Shown here: positions 3,107-14,932 of the stretch, in pieces
Numbering within the stretch: the first letter of the stretch is position 1
How the letters are laid out: every line of letters begins with the position of its first letter
DNA from: Thermomicrobiaceae bacterium
GTDB lineage: Bacteria > Chloroflexota > Chloroflexia > Thermomicrobiales > Thermomicrobiaceae
Direction of reading: 5' to 3'
DNA: 64,000 nucleotides
Assembly: GCA_014874455.1 (NCBI GenBank)
Contig: JADBJL010000001.1
Coordinates: 1-64,000 of the forward strand
Translations under genes and position numbers: made by a program
Notes under the pieces: generated by a model
The model's input: the letters and a program-made list of their open reading frames with translations, nothing else
Told to the model about the DNA's origin: nothing
The model's database searches: none

Positions 3107-3523
3107 ATGGATAAGGCGGCGCTGATTGACGGGCTCAACCGGGATCTGGCAGGCGAGCTGCAAGCGATCGTCATGTATATTCACTACGCCGCGGCTGCGA
3201 CGGGTGTCGAGCGTCTGGAGCTCGCCGAGTTTTTTGAACGCGAGATCCAGGACGAGCTGCGGCACGCCCTCTTCCTCGCCAACAAGATCACCGCACTCGG
3301 CGGCACGCCGACTGACGAGCCTTTACCAGTACCGAAGGCGAGCAGCAACCGGGAGATGATCAAGAACGTCCTCGATGCCGAGGTGCGGACGATCGCTGCC
3401 TACAGCGAGCGCGTCAAGCAAGCGGAGGAGTTTGGCGACCTCGGTCTCGCCAACGACCTCCAGGACATCGTGTCGGACGAAACACGGCACAAAGAGGAAG
3501 CCGAGAAGCTGCTGCGCCCGTGA
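3107..3523 (+). CDS. ferritin-like domain protein (bacterioferritin/Dps-related)
   Basis: 138-aa four-helix protein of the ferritin-like superfamily. The helices carry the di-iron pattern: acidic and histidine residues in DLAGELQAIVMYIHYA, ERLELAEFFEREIQDELRHA (ExxxH) and LQDIVSDETRHKEEAEKLL (second ExxxH-like motif). Such proteins store or oxidise iron, or act in oxidative-stress defence. The two E/H helices make metal binding likely, but the subtype cannot be settled by eye. The ATG at 3107 has a GGGAGGG site about nine bases upstream; an upstream in-frame TTG is less convincing. It stands alone, convergent with the translin-family gene. Confidence 0.82.
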   Translation: MDKAALIDGLNRDLAGELQAIVMYIHYAAAATGVERLELAEFFEREIQDELRHALFLANKITALGGTPTDEPLPVPKASSNREMIKNVLDAEVRTIAAYSERVKQAEEFGDLGLANDLQDIVSDETRHKEEAEKLLRP

Positions 3524-3616: not shown

Positions 3617-3673
3617 CGCTCGCGCGAGCGAGTCACTCACTTTCGGACAGCAAGCCCCTCGCTCGCGCGAGCG
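3617..3673. repeat. repeated 14-bp perfect palindrome
   Basis: The palindrome CGCTCGCGCGAGCG occurs at 3617-3630, in the gap between the convergent ferritin-like and translin genes, and again at 3660-3673 inside the 3' end of the translin gene. Each copy could form a hairpin. The first is placed to act as a weak bidirectional terminator but has no T-run. Confidence 0.5.
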
Positions 3674-4280
3674 CCTCGCTCAGTTTCTGGTGCTCCACCG
3701 CCAGCGTCAAGTCGCCTCGGGTGCGCTCGAGCACTCCCCGCACCATATCGGTCGTCCGGCGTAGAGCATAGGTGACGGCGTCGGGGTAGTCGACCTGTAC
3801 CAGCACGCCGTAGATCTCGTCCATCACGTCCAGCATCGCCTCACCGCGTGCGAGGTCACCGTGGCGGATCGCATCGAGCACATGGCGCCGCAATTCGCCG
3901 GCTGCTTCACCCAGCGCGTTGAGGTAGACGGCATCGTCGACCTGCAGCGTCTCCGGCCCCGGCAGCGGGTTGCCTCCGATGATGGCCCGGGTCAGGCAGG
4001 CTTCGGCGAACTCCTTGTGCGCATCCTGGACATAGCCTGACCAGTAAATGGCGGGGTACTGAGCCAGGTCTGCCGTCAACTGCTCCTTGATCTCCCGGGC
4101 CTGGGCCAGTAGCTCATCGGCCAAGGCATAGTCAGCCCGGTGAACGGCGCGGACAGCGTTGGCGCTGAGGCGTGTGAGCTGGCGCGTCTCGGACAGGGCA
4201 CGCTCCCGTGCGCTGTTCACGAGATCTAACCGGGCCAGAATCCGCTCCGTGACCCGCGAGATCTCGGACGATCGCTCCAT
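3633..4280 (-). CDS. translin family protein
   Basis: 215-aa, almost entirely alpha-helical protein resembling prokaryotic members of the translin family. In eukaryotes translin and TRAX form the RNA/DNA-binding C3PO nuclease; bacterial and archaeal homologues are poorly characterised and may bind or cut RNA. Family features include an N-terminal helix with SSEISRVTERILARLDLVNS, an acidic DAHKEFAEACLTRAIIG helix (EFxEA pattern), and DAVYLNALGEAAGELRRHVL followed by EAMLDVMDEIYGVLVQVDYP. The ATG at 4280 is used; a strong ribosome site is not obvious. It lies 66 bases after the 590-aa gene on the same strand, so the two are probably cotranscribed. That pairing suggests a nucleic-acid or nucleotide role, as inference. 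Confidence 0.75.
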   Translation of the reverse strand: MERSSEISRVTERILARLDLVNSARERALSETRQLTRLSANAVRAVHRADYALADELLAQAREIKEQLTADLAQYPAIYWSGYVQDAHKEFAEACLTRAIIGGNPLPGPETLQVDDAVYLNALGEAAGELRRHVLDAIRHGDLARGEAMLDVMDEIYGVLVQVDYPDAVTYALRRTTDMVRGVLERTRGDLTLAVEHQKLSEALARARGLLSESE

Positions 4281-4346
4281 CCCAGGTACCCCTTATAAGC
4301 AGCTTTTCACCGCACGCTTATGCTCGCTTGGTCGCAGCCTGCGAGC

Positions 4347-6119
4347 TTAGTGCCCGCCCTGGCTTCCGGCAACGGTCGCCGCGGGCTCGACGACGCCCGC
4401 ATGTTCGAAAATACGGCGCAAGATGACCAGCGTCGAAGCATAGGTCGAATCCATGCCGAAGTAGGATAAGCCGCGAGCGCCGAGCGTGTGCGCTCGGCTG
4501 TACGGCGTGTCGGACGCGTAGTGGATGATCCCGAGGTCGACCGGAATTTCGGTCAGGTTGACGTGCTCACCCTGCCCGTAGCGGGTCAGGAAGGTATCCT
4601 CGTAGAGTGCATTCAAGTAGGGCCCGGTCTCCATCTCGACGACCGTGTAGTTCTCTCTGTAGTACAGATCGAGGTAGTCACGGTTCTGCAGATAGGTACC
4701 GAGGACGGAGATCGTCCGCTGGTGATCGAGTGCCGAGCCGTAGATCAGGTATGGCCTCAGATCTTCGGCCCCGAAGCGGTTCCGGAACCAATAGGTATTG
4801 CCGCTGTGCTCGTCGTGGACGACGTCCGGCAGCATCACGTCGCCGATGCGCGCATTCAGCGTCGCCGCCTTACCGAGAATGTAGACACCTTTGAGCTGGT
4901 GAGTACTCGCAGCAACCAGTGAGAGCAAGTGATAGGCTCCAAGGCCCAGGGGGTAGTTGATATTGAGGATCACCGCATCCGAGGAGCGAAGGTCGAAGCG
5001 GCCGAGGCTTTGGAGCCGCGGGTCGAAGTCTTCTGGGCACAGCCGGTCGAGCTCGATGATCTGCACGCCCACGTCGACCGGCCCATCCGGTTCGATCGTC
5101 AGGATTCCCCGTTCACGTTCCTCGCGGTCGCGCTGTGCTCGTTCCTCTGGCCGACTGGCGTAGTACAGTCTGGCGGTGTAGTAGAGCCAGTTTTCCCAAC
5201 TGCTGCGTACCTGCCCGCTCTGGAGCTTGCGCAGCTCCGGTAGAAGCTCCGGATGCTGGGTCTCTTCGATGAAGCGCACCAGCGCGTCGCGTCGGCGACG
5301 AGCAGCGCCGGAGAGAATGTTGGCGATGCTGTGCATGTTCGACGAGACGAAGTAGAGCGGGCGATCCAGCAACCCACGCTCGCTCATGAAACGCTCGACC
5401 GGTGCCCACCATGCGCGCGCCGAGCGCACGTATCCGACGTAGCTGCCAGCCAGGAACTGGATCGTCAGCCGCTTCTTCACCTGCACGACCTTGCTCAGGT
5501 TCTCCCAGAAACGCTCGCTCCAGGCCTGGCGCAGGCGATGCCAGTCCGCCTCCCCGATCAGCAGGCCGGTTTGCACCCTCTCCTCTCTCTCAGGCGATGG
5601 TGGAGACGCGCGGAGCGCTTGGAATACCGCCTGGCGAAGCTCCTCGTCCTGCTGCGCGAGGGTATGCAGTTTGTTCCACTCGATCTGCCAGGCGACGACC
5701 GTCGGGATAACATCGTCGAGATCCGACGCCGAGGCGACGAAGGCGGCGAGGGTACCCTTCCCATCCCAGTACCAGCGGCGACGCCGCCCTGGAGCGGTCA
5801 CCGGCTGCCAGCGCGCCAGGTCGGCAAACCCGTGGCGCGCGAACACCGCCGCGGACTGACCCAGCACGATCCGCTCGGCGTCGACGATCGCCGCCGGCAG
5901 GCGCAGCGTGCTGTACATGAAGGCGTCCATATCAGGCGCGGGCTCGCGGGCTCCCTGATGGAGCAGCGACTCGACATTCAGATGGGCAGGTACCAGCGTC
6001 TCGACCGGCACCGGGCCGGAGCTACGCAGAAGCGTGTTGTAGGTCTTGACGTAGAGGTCGACCTCCCGCTTGCCGGCCTTGTGACGGTCGACGGCATCGG
6101 CGTGCGGCCTTGCTTCCAC
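4347..6119 (-). CDS. uncharacterised 590-aa protein with nucleoside-phosphorylase-like C-terminus
   Basis: I do not know an assigned function. From memory it resembles an uncharacterised bacterial family of about 570 aa (possibly DUF6909), unverified. The N-terminal half is helical, with a conserved-looking VPTVVAWQIEWNKLH segment. The C-terminal third (about residues 360-570) resembles the PNP/UDP phosphorylase fold: GKAATLNARIGDVMLPDVVH followed by VVEMETGPYLNALYE recalls the GD and VEMEs/a signatures of MTA/SAH nucleosidases and purine phosphorylases. It ends with a YSRAHTLGARGLSYFGMDST segment. The start is GTG at 6119 with GGAGGAGG just upstream. No signal peptide is seen. It sits upstream of the translin-family gene, apparently in one operon. 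A nucleotide or nucleoside substrate is plausible but not shown. Confidence 0.8.
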   Translation of the reverse strand: MEARPHADAVDRHKAGKREVDLYVKTYNTLLRSSGPVPVETLVPAHLNVESLLHQGAREPAPDMDAFMYSTLRLPAAIVDAERIVLGQSAAVFARHGFADLARWQPVTAPGRRRRWYWDGKGTLAAFVASASDLDDVIPTVVAWQIEWNKLHTLAQQDEELRQAVFQALRASPPSPEREERVQTGLLIGEADWHRLRQAWSERFWENLSKVVQVKKRLTIQFLAGSYVGYVRSARAWWAPVERFMSERGLLDRPLYFVSSNMHSIANILSGAARRRRDALVRFIEETQHPELLPELRKLQSGQVRSSWENWLYYTARLYYASRPEERAQRDREERERGILTIEPDGPVDVGVQIIELDRLCPEDFDPRLQSLGRFDLRSSDAVILNINYPLGLGAYHLLSLVAASTHQLKGVYILGKAATLNARIGDVMLPDVVHDEHSGNTYWFRNRFGAEDLRPYLIYGSALDHQRTISVLGTYLQNRDYLDLYYRENYTVVEMETGPYLNALYEDTFLTRYGQGEHVNLTEIPVDLGIIHYASDTPYSRAHTLGARGLSYFGMDSTYASTLVILRRIFEHAGVVEPAATVAGSQGGH

Positions 6120-6546: not shown

Positions 6547-7281
6547 ATGCCGCTGGTTCAACACTTGACCTGGGTCGACTTCGACGCCCTGCGGCGCGAG
6601 ACCGATCTGGTCTTGATCCCGCTCGGCGCGGTGGAGGTCTACGGCCCACACCTGCCGATGGGCGCCGACGGCATCGCCACGCTGGCGCTGGCCCAGCGCG
6701 TGGCCGAGCAGGTGCCCGCCTTCGTGGCGCCCTTGATCCCGGTCGGCTTCTCGCGGTCACTGGCCGAGTTCCCTGGCACACTCTCGGTTCGCCCCCAGTC
6801 GCTCCTGGCCTACACCCGTGACGTGGCCGAGAGCTTCATCCGCTGGGGCTGCCGCCGTATCCTCTTCGTCAACGGTCACGCTGGTAACGTCCCCTACCTC
6901 AACGAGCTGGCACTGGAGCTGGAAGCGACCCATCCGGTACGCTGCGCACAGATCGACTGGTGGCGTTTCATCCAGCCCCTGGTGGAGGATCTGGTCGAGA
7001 GCGACGTGCTGCCACACGGGCACGCCGCCGAGTTCGGCACCAGTGTGATGCTGCATCTCGTGCCCGAGCACGTGCGCATGGAGCGGGCGGTGCGTACCGA
7101 GCCAGCGGTGACCGACAGCTTTGCCGATTTCCTTCGCCCGCGCAGCTACCGTGCCCAGACCGAGACCGGCGTGCTGGGAGACGCCACCAAGGGGACAGCC
7201 GAAAAAGGGGCCGAGGTACTGCGCCGGGCGGTGGAGCGCGTGGTCACTTTCATCCGGAGCGACGCCTTCCGCGCGCCCTGA
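6547..7281 (+). CDS. creatininase family protein
   Basis: 244-aa protein of the creatininase superfamily of metal-dependent amidohydrolases, which includes creatinine amidohydrolase and the mycofactocin peptidase MftE. Visible motifs: IPLGAVEVYGPHLPMGADGI (metal ligands E, H and D), RILFVNGHAGN (usually NGHGGN) and HGHAAEFGTSVML (usually HAGE.ETS). All ligand positions appear kept, so it is likely active. The substrate cannot be told; no mycofactocin genes are nearby. The ATG at 6547 is preceded by GGAAGGA. It stands alone upstream of ftsH, separated by 263 bases that contain an ftsH promoter. Confidence 0.88.
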   Translation: MPLVQHLTWVDFDALRRETDLVLIPLGAVEVYGPHLPMGADGIATLALAQRVAEQVPAFVAPLIPVGFSRSLAEFPGTLSVRPQSLLAYTRDVAESFIRWGCRRILFVNGHAGNVPYLNELALELEATHPVRCAQIDWWRFIQPLVEDLVESDVLPHGHAAEFGTSVMLHLVPEHVRMERAVRTEPAVTDSFADFLRPRSYRAQTETGVLGDATKGTAEKGAEVLRRAVERVVTFIRSDAFRAP

Positions 7282-7459
7282 AGGCCTCTCGCTTCTACCG
7301 GATCCCGGAAGCGGACGCCTGTGGACTCCGGCTCGAAGTGGAGAACGACGGCCGGATGCTGGTCTGGCTCGGTGCGTCTACGACGCGCGTCGCCTCTCTT
7401 TCGGGTCGAGCCAGCCCGAGAGGCACGAGGAGCCCTGAACTCGTATTCCACAACTCCGA

Positions 7460-7468
7460 TGTTATAAT
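7460..7468 (+). promoter_or_regulatory. extended -10 promoter of ftsH
   Basis: The sequence TGTTATAAT contains a perfect TATAAT with a TG one base before it. No -35 hexamer is present at the right distance, consistent with an extended -10 promoter. It lies about 76 bases upstream of the ftsH ATG. Confidence 0.6.
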
Positions 7469-7544
7469 CGAGGCGCCCTGGCGATCGCCGCGGAGTGCGG
7501 CCTGATTGTGGGGACGAGCGATCATCGCAGGCGGAGGACGCCCG

Positions 7545-9515
<1,971 letters not shown>

Positions 9516-9584
9516 GTCATGCCCGCAGTGGAACGAGCGGCGGCTCACAGTTCATAGGTAGCCGCACGTCGTCGACCCGGCAAA

Positions 9585-9619
9585 CGCCAGCGCCGGTGGG
9601 CTCACCACCGGCGCTGGCG
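9585..9619 (+). terminator. strong hairpin after ftsH, possibly bidirectional
   Basis: A perfect 14-bp stem (9585-9598 pairing with 9606-9619) around a 7-base loop, 70 bases after the ftsH stop and between convergent genes. No T-run follows directly, though a TTTTAA lies about 20 bases on. The position suggests transcription termination on both strands. Confidence 0.6.
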
Positions 9620-9650
9620 GAGGTCGCCTGTTAACGCAATTTTAACGCGC

Positions 9651-9920
9651 TCACGCCTCCGGTGTCAGCGCTCCGCTTTCCGGAGACAGCGATACAACGC
9701 AATCGATTGCCGCGACTTCATCGAAGCTGTACCACCCCGCGTCGAGAATGGGGCGGTAATCGTACTGCTGCCTGATCGCTTGGGCATCGCGAGCCGTTAT
9801 GCGAACGAGGCGGGCACCACAACCCGGGCGGATGTAGTAGCGCCCTTCCCGATCGCGAAAGAGGAGGCTCTGCGGATAGTCGCCCCGGCGTCCGATGAGC
9901 TGATAGCTGCGGCTATCCAT
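9651..9920 (-). CDS. small hypothetical protein, 89 aa
   Basis: Unrecognised 89-aa protein. It has a mixed alpha/beta look: LLFRDREGRYYIRPGCGARL suggests two beta strands, ARDAQAIRQQYDYRP a helix, and the C-terminus is acidic to neutral. One Cys pair (positions about 34 and 74) is not a CxxC motif. The ATG at 9920 has a GGAGGGAG site about four bases upstream, which supports translation. A promoter at 10009-10036 reads toward it, so it need not depend on the tRNA-Ala promoter. It converges with ftsH across a strong hairpin. Confidence 0.7.
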   Translation of the reverse strand: MDSRSYQLIGRRGDYPQSLLFRDREGRYYIRPGCGARLVRITARDAQAIRQQYDYRPILDAGWYSFDEVAAIDCVVSLSPESGALTPEA

Positions 9921-10008
9921 GGGCTCCCTCCTCCCTCGGGGTTCCGCACAGGCGCAGGGAACACGCTAAACGCCCACCCGCGCTGTGTACAGGGAAACCG
10001 CTCCGAGT

Positions 10009-10036
10009 AGCATATCCTGGTGGAAACACGGGCCAA
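10009..10036 (-). promoter_or_regulatory. promoter for the 89-aa gene
   Basis: Minus strand: -35 TTGGCC (10031-10036), 16-base spacer, -10 TATGCT (10009-10014). It begins eight bases after the 3' end of the tRNA-Ala gene and points to the 89-aa gene, leaving a leader of about 80 bases. Confidence 0.45.
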
Positions 10037-10043
10037 CGCAGGG

Positions 10044-10116
<73 letters not shown>

Positions 10117-10135
10117 ACGCGTTCGGCCGGTAACG

Positions 10136-10165
10136 AGTATACGCGAGGCACATACGCTTCGTCAA
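10136..10165 (-). promoter_or_regulatory. promoter of tRNA-Ala
   Basis: Minus strand: -35 TTGACG (10160-10165), 18-base spacer, -10 TATACT (10136-10141). The predicted start is about a dozen bases before the tRNA 5' end. Confidence 0.75.
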
Positions 10166-10360
10166 GGACGGGCGGGATGCCACACCGATCACGGTTCGGG
10201 AACCTTCACGATCGCCACCCCAGGTATTTACGAGATGGCCTGCGAGATCCCTAGCCACAGGGAGGCGGGTGGGGTCGGTGACCTCGTCGTCCGGTGAGCC
10301 GGGCTCCAACCTGTTGAGCGCCACCACACCCGGCACCGGTACCTCGCGGCGGAGAGGTGT

Positions 10361-10376
10361 CTCACAGGGCTGTGAG
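10361..10376 (-). terminator. possible hairpin after DUF1232 gene
   Basis: The inverted repeat CTCACAG-GG-CTGTGAG lies 27 bases past the DUF1232 stop on the minus strand. The stem is short and no T-run follows, so it is a weak terminator candidate. Confidence 0.3.
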
Positions 10377-10402
10377 GCGGTGGGTACCTGATCCAAGCGG
10401 TC

Positions 10403-10915
10403 TCAGCGAAAGGCCCTGGCGGCGAGCAGAGTCGCGAGCGCGGCGAGGCTCAGCCAACTGGCCACAACCAGGCCGACACCGACCAGACCGATGCCTGGCC
10501 CATCCGTAGCCCGGGCTTCCGCCGCCGCCTGGCACTCCGCCAGCACCCCCGCCGGGATCAGCCGGATCGCCAGCACCACCAGTAGCGGCACCAGGACGAG
10601 GTCATCCAGGTGCCCGAGCACCGGGATGACGTCTGGGATGAGATCGAGCGGGCTGAGAACGTAGGCGGCAATGCCCAGCGCGAAGAGCCGGGCATACCAC
10701 GGTACCCTCGGATCCCGATACGCCAGGTAGAGTGCCACGGCATCCACTCGCAGCCGACGTGCACGCTGCCGCCAGCGCTCGAGCCTGCTCCGACGCAGGC
10801 TTGTGCCTTCTCTCGGCTCAGGGCGCGCTGTCGAATCTCGTTGCCTCGGCCTCGCCAACTCCCGCCCTCCGTGAGGGACACCTCGGCAGCGTGAGTTCAC
10901 TACCTCGCACGTCAT
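10403..10915 (-). CDS. DUF1232 (YkvA-like) membrane protein
   Basis: 170-aa protein with the DUF1232/YkvA motif: [20 protein letters not shown] followed by [20 protein letters not shown], then two hydrophobic segments. The SPxDLIPD motif is the family hallmark; function is unknown. The N-terminal 45 residues are basic and of low complexity, so the true start could be internal. I keep the ATG at 10915 because it overlaps the TGA of the preceding MFS gene in an ATGA, which suggests translational coupling. It is the last gene of the marR-MFS-DUF1232 operon. Confidence 0.82.
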
Positions 10916-12621
10916 TCGTCCAGGATATCGCCTCGCGTCCGCGACCGTTCGCTTCCAGCCACTACCGGCTGAGCTGGCGACGGCCCAGCCTCGACGGCCA
11001 CGGCGGAGGCTGCGCCCACCCGCCGCGTCCGCCGGAGCGGGATCTCCGGGAGAGCGGCGGTAGCGACCAACGCCAGCAGCATGAAGGCTGCTCCAACCGC
11101 GAACAGGCCAGTAATGGCCGAGCTCAGGCTGAGGCGCAGCGCGAGCATCACCTGGTCGAAGAGCTGTTGACCCGCTGAGCCGAACTGCTCGAAGGCTTGC
11201 TGCATCCGCGCCATCGCCTCGGGTGACACCAGTGCCTGCGGGTTGCGGAGCAGACCAAGCTGCTCCGGGGAAACGTGCTGACGAATCGGCTCAGGCAAGT
11301 TCGCTGTGAAGGCGCTGGTAAAGCGATTCGTCAAGACAGACCCGAGAATGGCGGCTCCTAGTGTTCCTCCAATGGAGCGGAAGAAGACGAGACCAGAGGT
11401 CACTTCCCCCAGCACCTGTGGCGGAAACGCATTCTGTACCACGATGGTGAAGAGGCTCATGGTCGTGCCGATCCCCAGCCCGGTCACGACCATGTTCCGC
11501 ACCACCTCACTACCCGTACTCTGTGGCGTCATGCGCGACAGTAACACCATACCCAGGGCCGCGAGGGCCACGCTGCCGATCGCCAGCGCCTTGTAGCGGC
11601 CAGTGCGGGCCATGAGCTGCCCGCCGACGATGCTGCTGGTGACGAAGCCGAGCATCATCGGCGTCAACACCGCGCCGGAGTTCGTCGCTGTGCGTCCGAG
11701 CACGCCCTGGATGAAGAGCGGCAGGTACAGAATCGTCCCGAACATGCCGACAGCGATGAAGAAGCCGGCCAGAACCGAGAGGGTGTAGATCCGGTTGCGG
11801 AACAAGCGCGGGTTCACGATCGGCTCCGGTGCTCGCAGTTCGACCAGGAAGAAGACGCTGAGCATGACCGCGGCGAACGTGAGGAGCCCGACGATCTGCG
11901 GAGAACTCCACGGATACTCCGCACCCGCCCAGGACAGCGCAAGAAGCAAGGGAACGGTGCCGGCAATCAGCAACGCGGCACCCAGGTAGTCGATGGCGTG
12001 CTCTCGGCGACTCAGCCGCCCCGGGATAGTGAGACCGGCCGTCACCAGGGCCACAGCCCCGACCGGCATGTTCACGTAGAAGACCCAGCGCCATCCCCAG
12101 TGGTCGGTAATCCAGCCGCCGAGCGTCGGGCCGACGATCGCCGTCACTCCCCAGACCCCCGCAAAGACTCCCTGCCACTTCCCGCGCTCAGCCGGTGGAA
12201 GGAGGTCACCGACGAGCGCAAGGGAGATCGGGAAGAGCGCTCCGGCGCCCAGCCCCTGTACCGCGCGGAACACGATGAGCTGCGTCATCGTCTGAGCCAG
12301 TCCGGACAGCGCCGAACCGAGCAGGAAGACCCCCATCCCGAGGAGAAACAAGCCCCGCCGCCCATAGATATCGGAAAGCTTGCCGTAGATCGGCACCGTC
12401 ACCGTCGATGCGAGCATGTAGGCAGTAAACACCCACGCGTAGTGCTCGAGTCCTCGAAGCTCCGCGATAATCCGCGGCATTGCGGTACCGACGACCGTTT
12501 GGTCGAGCGCCCCCAGGAGCATCCCGAGCAGGACACCGGCCAGCACCAGCCAGACCCGCCTCTGTCCCACCCCCTCGTCCATCTCCGGTCGGCCAGCGCG
12601 GCCAATCGCGTGCGTGGTCAT
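10912..12621 (-). CDS. MFS drug exporter, DHA2 (14-helix) family
   Basis: 569-aa integral membrane transporter of the EmrB/QacA type (drug:proton antiporter), with about fourteen hydrophobic helices. Motif [18 protein letters not shown] follows TM2, and [13 protein letters not shown] in TM1 is the DHA2 signature. [19 protein letters not shown] is motif B, and [20 protein letters not shown] is motif C followed by the conserved Trp/Arg loop. Start ATG at 12621 overlaps the marR stop in an ATGA. Together with the MarR-type regulator this looks like a drug or solvent efflux operon, probably repressed by the MarR protein and induced by its ligand. The substrate is unknown. The C-terminal tail is cytoplasmic and Arg-rich. 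Confidence 0.92.
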
Positions 12622-13112
12622 GGAACCTCTCCCTTTGCCCCCGCCCGTCGTTGCTCGACAGGCTTGGTGCTCGCTAACGCCTCGGCGGCCCGTGCCAGGG
12701 CCGCGAGGCCCCGATCGAGTGCGTCCAGATCTTCCCGGCTGAGCTGCTCGAGGAGCGGGATCAGGGCTTCACGGTTCCCCTGGCGGAGTCGGCGGGTCAG
12801 CGATTCGCCTTCGGGCGTCAAGCGCACCAGGGTGCGCCGCCGATCGGCCGGATCCTCACTACGGACGACGAGCCCCACCTGCACGAGCTTGTCCACCAGG
12901 TGGCTCGCGGTCGGCGCGCTAATGCCCAACCACTCGGCCAGTTCCCCGACGGTGACCGGCTGGATGAAGGAAAGCGCAAACAGCGTCCTGAGCTGAGCCA
13001 TCGTCAGTTCCAGCTCCAGCCATCGGCGCATGCCCGCCATGTGGAGTGCCTGCATCACCACCCGCAGGTTGTCCAGCAGCCGCTCGATGGTGTCAGCCCG
13101 TGATGCCTCCAT
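12618..13112 (-). CDS. MarR family transcriptional regulator
   Basis: 164-aa winged-helix repressor. The helix-turn-helix is near residues 55-80 (TVGELAEWLGISAPTASHLV), followed by the wing with the family signature DPADRRRTLVRLTPEG. Helices at both ends would form the dimer interface. The ATG at 13112 has a GGAGG about seven bases upstream. Its stop overlaps the MFS start (ATGA), so it very likely controls its own operon. A candidate operator, ATCGA-T-TCGAT, lies between the -35 and -10 of its promoter. Confidence 0.92.
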   Translation of the reverse strand: MEASRADTIERLLDNLRVVMQALHMAGMRRWLELELTMAQLRTLFALSFIQPVTVGELAEWLGISAPTASHLVDKLVQVGLVVRSEDPADRRRTLVRLTPEGESLTRRLRQGNREALIPLLEQLSREDLDALDRGLAALARAAEALASTKPVEQRRAGAKGEVP

Positions 13113-13133
13113 AAGGAGCCCTCCATGCCCGGC

Positions 13134-13163
13134 AGTCTAGCACCATCGATTCGATGTTGTCAA
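13134..13163 (-). promoter_or_regulatory. promoter and likely operator of the marR-MFS operon
   Basis: Minus strand: -35 TTGACA (13158-13163), 18-base spacer, -10 TAGACT (13134-13139). The spacer contains the odd palindrome ATCGA-T-TCGAT (13145-13155), well placed for a MarR dimer to block RNA polymerase. The leader is about 15-20 bases and carries the ribosome site. Confidence 0.65.
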
Positions 13164-13436
13164 ATTGTTGCAGGAGTTCAATGCGTATTCCGCGGGCCGA
13201 AAGGTCGCAGTAACCCGGTGTACGCCAGTGGGTTGCCTTCCAGGCACGCGAGCGACCCGGCGCGCATTGTCCACCCGTTCACTATCCAGAGGGAACCAAA
13301 CCACCGCTTCGAGCGTATATGTGTATGGAGACGGTCGAGACCGGCTCCAGCCAGTCCTCCAACCGGAGCGAGAACCGCTCCACCCCTCCCCTTCCCGCGC
13401 ACGAGCCGGGTCATTTCGGCCCGGCTCTGCGTTCTG

Positions 13437-13453
13437 TGTGCCGCTGCGGCACA
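13437..13453. promoter_or_regulatory. 17-bp palindrome just upstream of dnaA promoter
   Basis: TGTGCCGCTGCGGCACA is a perfect inverted repeat with one central base, ending two bases before the dnaA -35. The position suits a regulator of dnaA. It does not match a DnaA box, and the cognate protein is unknown. Confidence 0.45.
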
Positions 13454-13455
13454 TC

Positions 13456-13484
13456 TTGCTGCACCCGTGTTCGCATGCTACGAT
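13456..13484 (+). promoter_or_regulatory. dnaA promoter
   Basis: -35 TTGCTG (13456-13461), 17-base spacer, -10 TACGAT (13479-13484). The predicted transcript would start near 13491, about 56 bases before the dnaA ATG. Confidence 0.6.
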
Positions 13485-13546
13485 CATGCCCACGGAAATG
13501 TACGTACACACGGACGAGCCGGCCAGGTGGCAGCGGAGGATCGGCG

Positions 13547-14932
13547 ATGCAGGCCAAGCAGATCTGGCAGGTAGCGCTCAGTGATCTAGAAGCGCGCGTC
13601 TCCCGGGCTAACTACGAGACCTGGCTCCGCAACACCGAGCTGATCTCGTTCGAAGAAGACTGCGCGACGATCGGCGCGCCCAGTAGCTTCGCGGCCGAAC
13701 AGTTGCGCAGCAAGTTCGCCGCGCCGATTCAGGAGATCCTTTCCCTGATCACCGGCCGGCCGGTCGCTGTACAGTTCACCGTGCTCAACAGCGACCGCCA
13801 GGCGCTCCGACCGGCGGCCCACCGGCAGGCCAAACGCAGCGCGGTGCTCGAGCTCGAGCAGCCCGCCGCGCCAGCCTCTCTCCAGCTCGAACTCGCCGTT
13901 ACTCCCGAGCACGGCCTGAACCCGCGTTACACGTTCGAGAAGTTTGTCGTCGGCGCTAACAACCGCCTCGCCCATGCCGCCGCGATGGCCGTCGCCGACC
14001 GGCCAGCCGACAAGTTCAACCCGCTCTTTATCTACGGTGGGGTGGGGCTCGGCAAGACTCACCTGCTCCACGCCATCGGTCACCGAGCGCTGGCCCGGCG
14101 ACCACAGCTCAAGGTGCGGTACGTCTCCTCCGAGACCTTTACCAACGACCTCATCCACGCCATCCGCCAGCAGCGTACCGACGATTTCCGTAACCGCTAC
14201 CGCACCATCGACATCCTGATGGTCGACGACATCCAGTTCATCGCCGGCAAGGAGAGTACCCAGGAGGAGTTCTTTCACACCTTCAACGCGCTCTACCAGG
14301 CCGGAAAGCAGATCGTCATCTCCAGCGACCGGCCCCCCAAGGCGATCCACAACCTCGCCGACCGCCTCCGCTCCCGCTTCGAGGGTGGACTCCTCGCCGA
14401 TATCCAGCCGCCTGACCTGGAGACGCGCCAGGCGATCCTGGCTGAGAAGGGCCGCGAACTGGGTGTCGATGTCCCCGACGACGTCCTCGAATACGTCGCC
14501 CGGAAGATCGAGAGCAACATCCGCGAGTTAGAAGGCGCGCTCAATCGGATCGTGGCGCTGGCGCAGCTCTATCACCGCTCGATCTCGCTCGACCTCGCTG
14601 TCCAGGCCTTGACCGACGCGCAGGCCGAATCGCGGCGGCAGCGGCTGACGCCCGACGCGGTGATCGATGCCGTGGGCCAGCACTTCCGGGTCTCGGTGCC
14701 GGAACTCGTCGGGCCAGGCCGGCGACGCGACGTCGTCGTCCCCCGCCAGGTGGCCATGTACCTGATGCGCGAGGAACTCGGACTCTCGCTTGTCGAGATC
14801 GGCCAGCGACTCGGGGGGCGCGACCACACGACAGTGCTGCACGGGATCGAGAAGATCGAGCAGCAGCTCCAGCACGACAGCCAGCTCCGCGGCGAGCTGC
14901 TGGCCGTCCGTGAGCGCCTGTACACCGGGTAA
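13547..14932 (+). CDS. dnaA: chromosomal replication initiator protein DnaA
   Basis: Initiator ATPase that binds DnaA boxes and opens the origin. Domain I begins [26 protein letters not shown]+ domain III begins [20 protein letters not shown], with Walker A GGVGLGKT (about residue 163), Walker [11 protein letters not shown] (about 225) and sensor motifs near [19 protein letters not shown]. Domain IV ends with the DnaA-box-binding signature [14 protein letters not shown] (about 424). The ATG at 13547 gives 461 aa, the usual size, with GCGGAGGA upstream; the longer open frame is not coding-like. dnaN, recF and gyrB are not adjacent. The next gene converges with only five bases between stops. 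Confidence 0.96.

Follow-up and report, generated by a model that had tools for sequence, protein, structure and literature searches.

In archaea, TRAX forms an operon with SepRS, according to the available portion of PMC5424206. That paper was the sole match when the literature was searched for translin together with Chloroflexi; searches for 'translin family' with Dehalococcoides, and for work joining translin, nucleoside phosphorylase, operon and bacteria, found nothing. The available sections of a study of Chloroflexota uric-acid degradation (PMC12507026) name only a putative F420 enzyme, and the term DUF has no match in its main text. Our literature search likewise found no mention of DUF6909 or PF21850. 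Here we compare with these systems a Trax/translin-like gene and a DUF6909 gene that lie side by side in a 64,000-nucleotide stretch of a Thermomicrobiaceae genome (the whole of which we call the window):

3633..4280, minus strand: Trax/translin-like gene, 215 aa, ATG start
4281..4346, minus strand: intergenic gap between the two genes, 66 bases, both genes on one strand
4347..6119, minus strand: DUF6909 gene, 590 aa, GTG start; PF21850 at E 8e-221; AlphaFold2 model with mean pLDDT 85.2

The initial annotation had placed two cotranscribed reading frames here, and both are real, at these positions and with this gap. In the window genus the two genes probably share one transcript, judging from their spacing. 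The stretch GGAGGAGG lies just before the GTG start of the 590-aa frame, and the single promoter-like match on the minus strand is upstream of the same gene, where 0.6 matches are expected by chance. The pair is flanked on the opposite strand by genes for a ferritin-like protein (3107-3523; 1e-25) and a creatininase-family amidohydrolase (6547-7281; 7.6e-65). A known defence system was considered as an identity for the pair and rejected (best PADLOC value 0.011).

The assignment of the 215-aa protein to the translin family holds. Its residues 14-204 match AfTrax (3zc1) with a phmmer E-value of 4e-23, and Nanoarchaeum NEQ131 (5jr9) is matched at 2.2e-11. The Pfam Translin model gives E 0.0062 and 17 bits, its cut-off being 25.9, and the NCBIfam models PRK14562.1-5 match at up to 9.5e-76, under their model cut-offs. 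The description attached to PRK14562, 'haloacid dehalogenase superfamily protein', looks misleading for bacterial translin-family proteins. Residues E90, E93, E125 and E129 are invariant in 43/43 aligned translins. The catalytic tetrad of the Trax RNase is E, E, D, E, with the D backed by the difference between 3zc0 and 3zc1. Like AfTrax and archaeal C3PO, the window protein keeps the E..E and GEL motif residues. Unlike AfTrax, in which the place of residue 125 is held by an Asp that is Ala in 3zc0, the window protein and its relatives have Glu there throughout the same 43 sequences. By homology and by these conserved acidic residues, it is likely a Trax-like RNase.

Bacterial translins had been described as scarce, which is wrong for Chloroflexota: a translin of the window kind is present in 243 of 399 genomes. 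Across 43 loci the neighbours of the translin gene vary, with ThiD2/TMP-TENI and an H+-PPase, UbiA and SUI1, or DUF3467 beside it according to lineage, and with DUF6909 nearby in five. Unlike the archaeal TRAX-SepRS operon, as far as the available portion of PMC5424206 describes it, the window translin gene sits in another neighbourhood.

The 590-aa protein matches PF21850 (DUF6909) over its whole length (residues 39-572, model positions 1-535 of 535, 734.5 bits against a cut-off of 27), a described family of unknown function, and is therefore not an orphan. It had been called uncharacterised, which is true of the family's function but overlooks that Pfam already describes it. DUF6909 was found in 116 of the 399 Chloroflexota genomes, and the relatives of the 590-aa protein assign the window to the Thermomicrobia lineage of this phylum. 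An AlphaFold2 model was built from an alignment of 42 sequences, namely the window protein and 41 taken from the best 80 of 188 loci, and reached a pTM of 0.86; the low-confidence stretches 421-424 and 536-550 lie at or beside motifs. Residue numbers in the model are protein numbers minus one. The features that emerge from the model and the alignment, in order along the window, are:

4395..5420, minus strand: nucleoside-phosphorylase-like (NP-I) domain, model residues 233-574, from VIA and Foldseek
4509..4511, minus strand: Asp 537 of SDTP, invariant 42/42; by analogy, equivalent to the Asp with which purine NP-I enzymes protonate the base
4629..4637, minus strand: EME motif, residues 495-497, invariant 42/42; corresponding to VEME of E. 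coli Mtn
4839..4844, minus strand: GD motif, residues 426-427 (NARIGDVML), invariant 42/42
4854..4874, minus strand: GKAATLN motif, residues 416-422, every residue invariant 42/42; located where NP-I enzymes have their glycine-rich turn
5778..5786, minus strand: Arg-Arg-Arg, residues 112-114, in the N-terminal half, invariant 42/42

With VIA-align, model residues 233-572 superpose on the Thermus purine nucleoside phosphorylase (PNP) 1odi_A with a Z of 18.5 and an rmsd of 3.0 over 212 of 234 residues, at 11% identity, and all 50 VIA rows are NP-I enzymes (Z 17.2-18.5). The best Foldseek matches are MTA/AdoHcy nucleosidases, with the E. coli enzyme at 2.8e-05, followed by PNPs, uridine phosphorylases and AMP nucleosidases. 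The order of the motifs, GKAATLN...GD, EME, SDT, is that of E. coli Mtn; this matching, and the correspondence of GKAATLN to the NP-I turn, were made by hand from motif order. Purine-type NP-I enzymes protonate the base with the Asp of the SD motif, a role that we assume by analogy for Asp 537. Sequence comparison, on the other hand, was null. PF01048 did not match the protein at any E-value up to 10, hhalign of DUF6909 against PNP/MTAP, Mtn, DeoD and Amn stayed under a probability of 3 throughout (the PNP set looks, by eye, to be of the trimeric MTAP/PNP kind), and no PDB sequence match of note was found. The case for NP-I is therefore built on the modelled fold and on the motifs. DUF6909 resembles DeoD-type PNP, uridine phosphorylase and MTA/AdoHcy nucleosidase in fold (Z 17-18.5) and in GD/EME/SD order, but differs in having no detectable sequence similarity to them and in carrying an additional N-terminal half as well as a helical insert. 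Nor are the phosphate-site Arg positions of NP-I enzymes evident in it. We conclude that the C-terminal part has, as modelled, an NP-I fold and may work like an NP-I enzyme, and we do not claim membership of PF01048.

Much of what the initial annotation had read from the letters thus survives: the GD and VEMET motifs are both present, inside the NP-I fold, and structure prediction relates the C-terminal domain to the nucleoside phosphorylases. The fold itself is borne out by the model, although it starts at about residue 234 rather than 360. Profile searches, which had been proposed for both proteins, identified PF21850 and the Trax homology, but the NP-I domain is invisible to them.

The N-terminal half is harder to place. 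Modelled alone it reached a pLDDT of 89.5; its best Foldseek match, at 0.27, was far above the 0.001 limit, and a profile comparison of the N-terminal with the C-terminal half was null. Its best VIA rows are mostly uridine phosphorylases, of which the first 90 to 140 residues align, with Z up to 3.9; this likeness may be only a common arrangement and is at most suggestive. The half bears on whether DUF6909 could replace AMP nucleosidase in Chloroflexota, as a two-part protein hydrolysing AMP. Amn and DUF6909 are both long proteins with a C-terminal NP-I domain, Amn (2guw) is among the structural matches of the C-terminal part (Z 17.5, 238 aligned), and a search of 101 Chloroflexota genomes for the N-terminal domain of Amn found none. 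The N-terminal half does not agree with that of Amn: a Pfam search of the 590-aa protein with AMNp_N (PF10423) gave no match and the model of the N-terminal half aligns to 2guw only weakly (Z 3.5, 100 aligned, chain residues 173-381). We consider this replacement highly unlikely.

The two genes had been put forward as an undescribed two-gene system. Among the 399 Chloroflexota genomes, 75 have both genes, 41 DUF6909 only, 168 translin only and 115 neither, which is no co-occurrence beyond expectation (odds ratio 1.25, p 0.37, kinship ignored). Translin lies within the fetched flanks of 7/140 DUF6909 loci, and in a set of 110 loci it is nearby only in the window genus, in G005 and in L095; both sets include some genomes more than once. 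Among the matches listed, 13 genomes could be compared on one contig, and the genes lie next to each other in two of them, G005 and the window genome; distances of 81 kb to 977 kb separate them in the other 11. An obligate translin/DUF6909 pair was thus rejected, on the lack of co-occurrence and the 7/140 loci, and on the same grounds the pair is not a conserved system.

Four genomes of the window genus keep the pair, as does G005, of a neighbouring genus, where the translin and DUF6909 open frames overlap (L282). It also recurs elsewhere. The order of G139 has DUF6909 in 5/7 genomes, and in its family f44 translin is directly upstream of DUF6909 at 5/5 loci, the reverse of the window order. 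When 60 DUF6909 proteins were placed in a tree, each of the two paired groups formed a clade of its own with support of 100/100, and therefore at least two origins of the pairing are probable. In two f44 genomes a Cas4-like nuclease gene lies directly downstream of the pair (L263:8835-9392 and L264:8885-9442). The gene-neighbourhood survey thus gave no general conservation, but did give independent recurrence in one other family, in reversed order.

Could the two genes be mere neighbours, each with an unrelated function of its own, and adjacent in these lineages by coincidence? The lack of co-occurrence, the large distances in 11 of the 13 genomes compared and the change of translin neighbours with lineage all fit such an explanation. 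Adjacency in two well-separated clades in opposite order does not, nor do the overlapping frames in L282, nor the Anaerolineae locus L095, in which translin is 2.2 kb upstream of DUF6909 on the same strand. We regard the explanation as possible, if somewhat doubtful. Because of the independent recurrence, the reversed order and the 5/5 f44 loci, the pairing looks more than chance, though lineage-specific; we read it as a probable operon of particular lineages rather than a dedicated conserved system.

A different context for DUF6909 is found in the relatives, where it accompanies the genes of a molybdenum hydroxylase. In L095 a same-strand run (7081-14013) comprises translin, a Cas4-like nuclease, a fused FAD/2Fe-2S subunit, DUF6909 and a Mo subunit; the nuclease, of the PD-(D/E)XK kind, is split and reads in two overlapping frames. 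Two further orders were scanned with 1.5 kb flanks, taking the best 30 of 50 matching genomes (81 searched) in the order of G389 and the best 30 of 36 (48 searched) in that of G233. Genes for the small and large subunits of a xanthine-dehydrogenase (XDH)-type hydroxylase flank DUF6909 at 41/60 of these loci, in both orders. The order of G389 has both subunits at 21/30 and none at 9/30, and that of G233 both at 20/30, one adjacent at 7/30 and none at 3/30; subunits beyond a contig end are missed by such scans, and several loci of the latter order are on short contigs. In the tree, 15 XDH-linked loci form one supported group (95/92), with Anaerolineaceae that do not have the link nested inside it. 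The link was seen in 0/30 Thermomicrobia DUF6909 loci.

Twenty wider DUF6909/XDH loci hold further genes: a YqeC-MocA fusion (10), a canonical PNP of PF01048 (9), CofC (8), CofD (7), an F420-type luciferase-family oxidoreductase (8), a metallophosphoesterase (8), XdhC (6), YqeB (3) and, from searches with E. coli proteins, SsnA (3), with YgeW, YgeY and YqeA in L377 alone. The same kind of query found no XdhD-like or SsnA gene at 137 other DUF6909 loci. These clusters resemble the reductive uric-acid cluster, as the available sections of PMC12507026 present it, in having an XDH homologue, an F420-type luciferase-family gene and YqeB/YqeC/MocA and, at some loci, SsnA or Yge genes. The window locus differs from that cluster, so far as those sections describe it, in having none of its genes. 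DUF6909 most likely belongs to purine/uric-acid clusters in the XDH clade. Two other components of these loci had no assignment: a small protein (about 120-160 aa, no Pfam match) lies between the XDH small subunit and DUF6909 at many loci (for example L270:6582-6962 and L365:11126-11560), and an 835-aa protein that matches neither Pfam nor NCBIfam (L365:14670-17174) is present in six F420/XDH cluster loci.

For the Mo subunit the best NCBIfam model is pucD (1.1e-190 in L095 and 4.6e-165 in L270, under its cut-off), and among solved structures the subunit comes closest to 4-hydroxybenzoyl-CoA reductase, nicotinate dehydrogenase, aldehyde oxidoreductase and xanthine oxidase. The purine-binding Glu and Arg of XDH are residues 802 and 880 of the bovine enzyme. 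The GG[KR]ED stretch, Glu included, is kept wherever it was read. The place aligned by hand with the Arg holds Asn, and therefore the substrate of the hydroxylase is uncertain; 'xanthine-dehydrogenase-type' names its family, not its substrate. A profile of the linked type scored at best 326 bits in the window genome, as against 621 in G005, and so the window genome has no close relative of the linked hydroxylase.

Outside the XDH clade the neighbours of DUF6909 vary by lineage and include Ppx-GppA, AMP-ligase and methyltransferase genes (from Pfam) and thioesterase-like and glyoxalase-like genes (by eye). In Ktedonobacteria (L056-L069) an N6_N4_Mtase DNA-methylase-like gene is often just upstream of DUF6909 (a cluster in 10 loci).

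On balance, though with little to spare, we think it probable that DUF6909 is a purine N-glycosidic-bond enzyme of purine/uric-acid catabolism which, in the window, is joined in a lineage-specific operon with a Trax-like RNase. The proposal is based on the predicted fold, the invariant motifs and the gene order in relatives, and catalysis is inferred from them. The C-terminal NP-I fold appears to keep the purine-type catalytic residues; the enzyme would cleave the N-glycosidic bond of a purine nucleoside or nucleotide, by hydrolysis or phosphorolysis, and would supply purine to, or act beside, the XDH-type hydroxylase. In the window genus, the Trax-like RNase might release RNA-derived nucleotides for it. 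Since the window has no XDH or uric-acid genes (SsnA, XDH homologue, F420-type gene), the role of its DUF6909 protein is proposed by orthology only, across a deep split and with the same invariant residues. The nucleotide or RNA turnover pathway that had been suggested for the pair accordingly fares unevenly: the 590-aa protein does gain a link to purine turnover, by way of other genomes, but the pair does not stand as a conserved system. Several findings count against the proposal: the null sequence comparison with NP-I families, the confinement of the XDH link to one DUF6909 clade, the lack of a close relative of the linked hydroxylase in the window genome, the Asn in that hydroxylase, a canonical PNP already present in 9/20 clusters, the missing co-occurrence with translin and the Glu at residue 125 of the translin. 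The canonical PNP, which would make another nucleosidase redundant, suits a maturation or accessory factor for the molybdenum hydroxylase, in which the NP-I fold would bind a nucleotide or cytidine dinucleotide cofactor and have no catabolic task. So does the location of DUF6909, with subunit genes on both sides and XdhC, YqeB and YqeC-MocA close by, as well as L269, in which a gene of the YqeC-MocA fusion family directly follows DUF6909 and the hydroxylase is absent. Against such a factor speak the invariant purine-type catalytic motifs, the many genomes that have DUF6909 and no linked hydroxylase, and the SsnA, F420 and Yge genes, which indicate a catabolic cluster; we believe it unlikely.

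A bolder form of the purine-enzyme proposal, which we offer as speculation and hold to be decidedly unlikely, is that DUF6909 is an unrecognised enzyme of the Chloroflexota F420-linked reductive purine/uric-acid pathway, a '1.5-copy' NP-I protein that in some lineages is wired to the Trax RNase. The first half would be a degenerate copy, similar to the beginning of uridine phosphorylase (Z no higher than 3.9), and its invariant Arg triplet would reach into the active site that the complete C-terminal copy forms, much as a neighbouring subunit contributes in classical phosphorylases, and the link to the Trax RNase would let RNA be broken down directly into the purine pathway.

The reportable result is the fold, likely active site and purine-catabolic context of DUF6909, and not the translin pair as a conserved system; the purine/uric-acid cluster context is a stronger lead than the pairing. 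Trax-like proteins are common in Chloroflexota and could be studied in this bacterial phylum. A widespread family of unknown function gains a fold, a likely active site and a pathway, and with them a testable job, and DUF6909 points to an unrecognised component of Chloroflexota uric-acid degradation.
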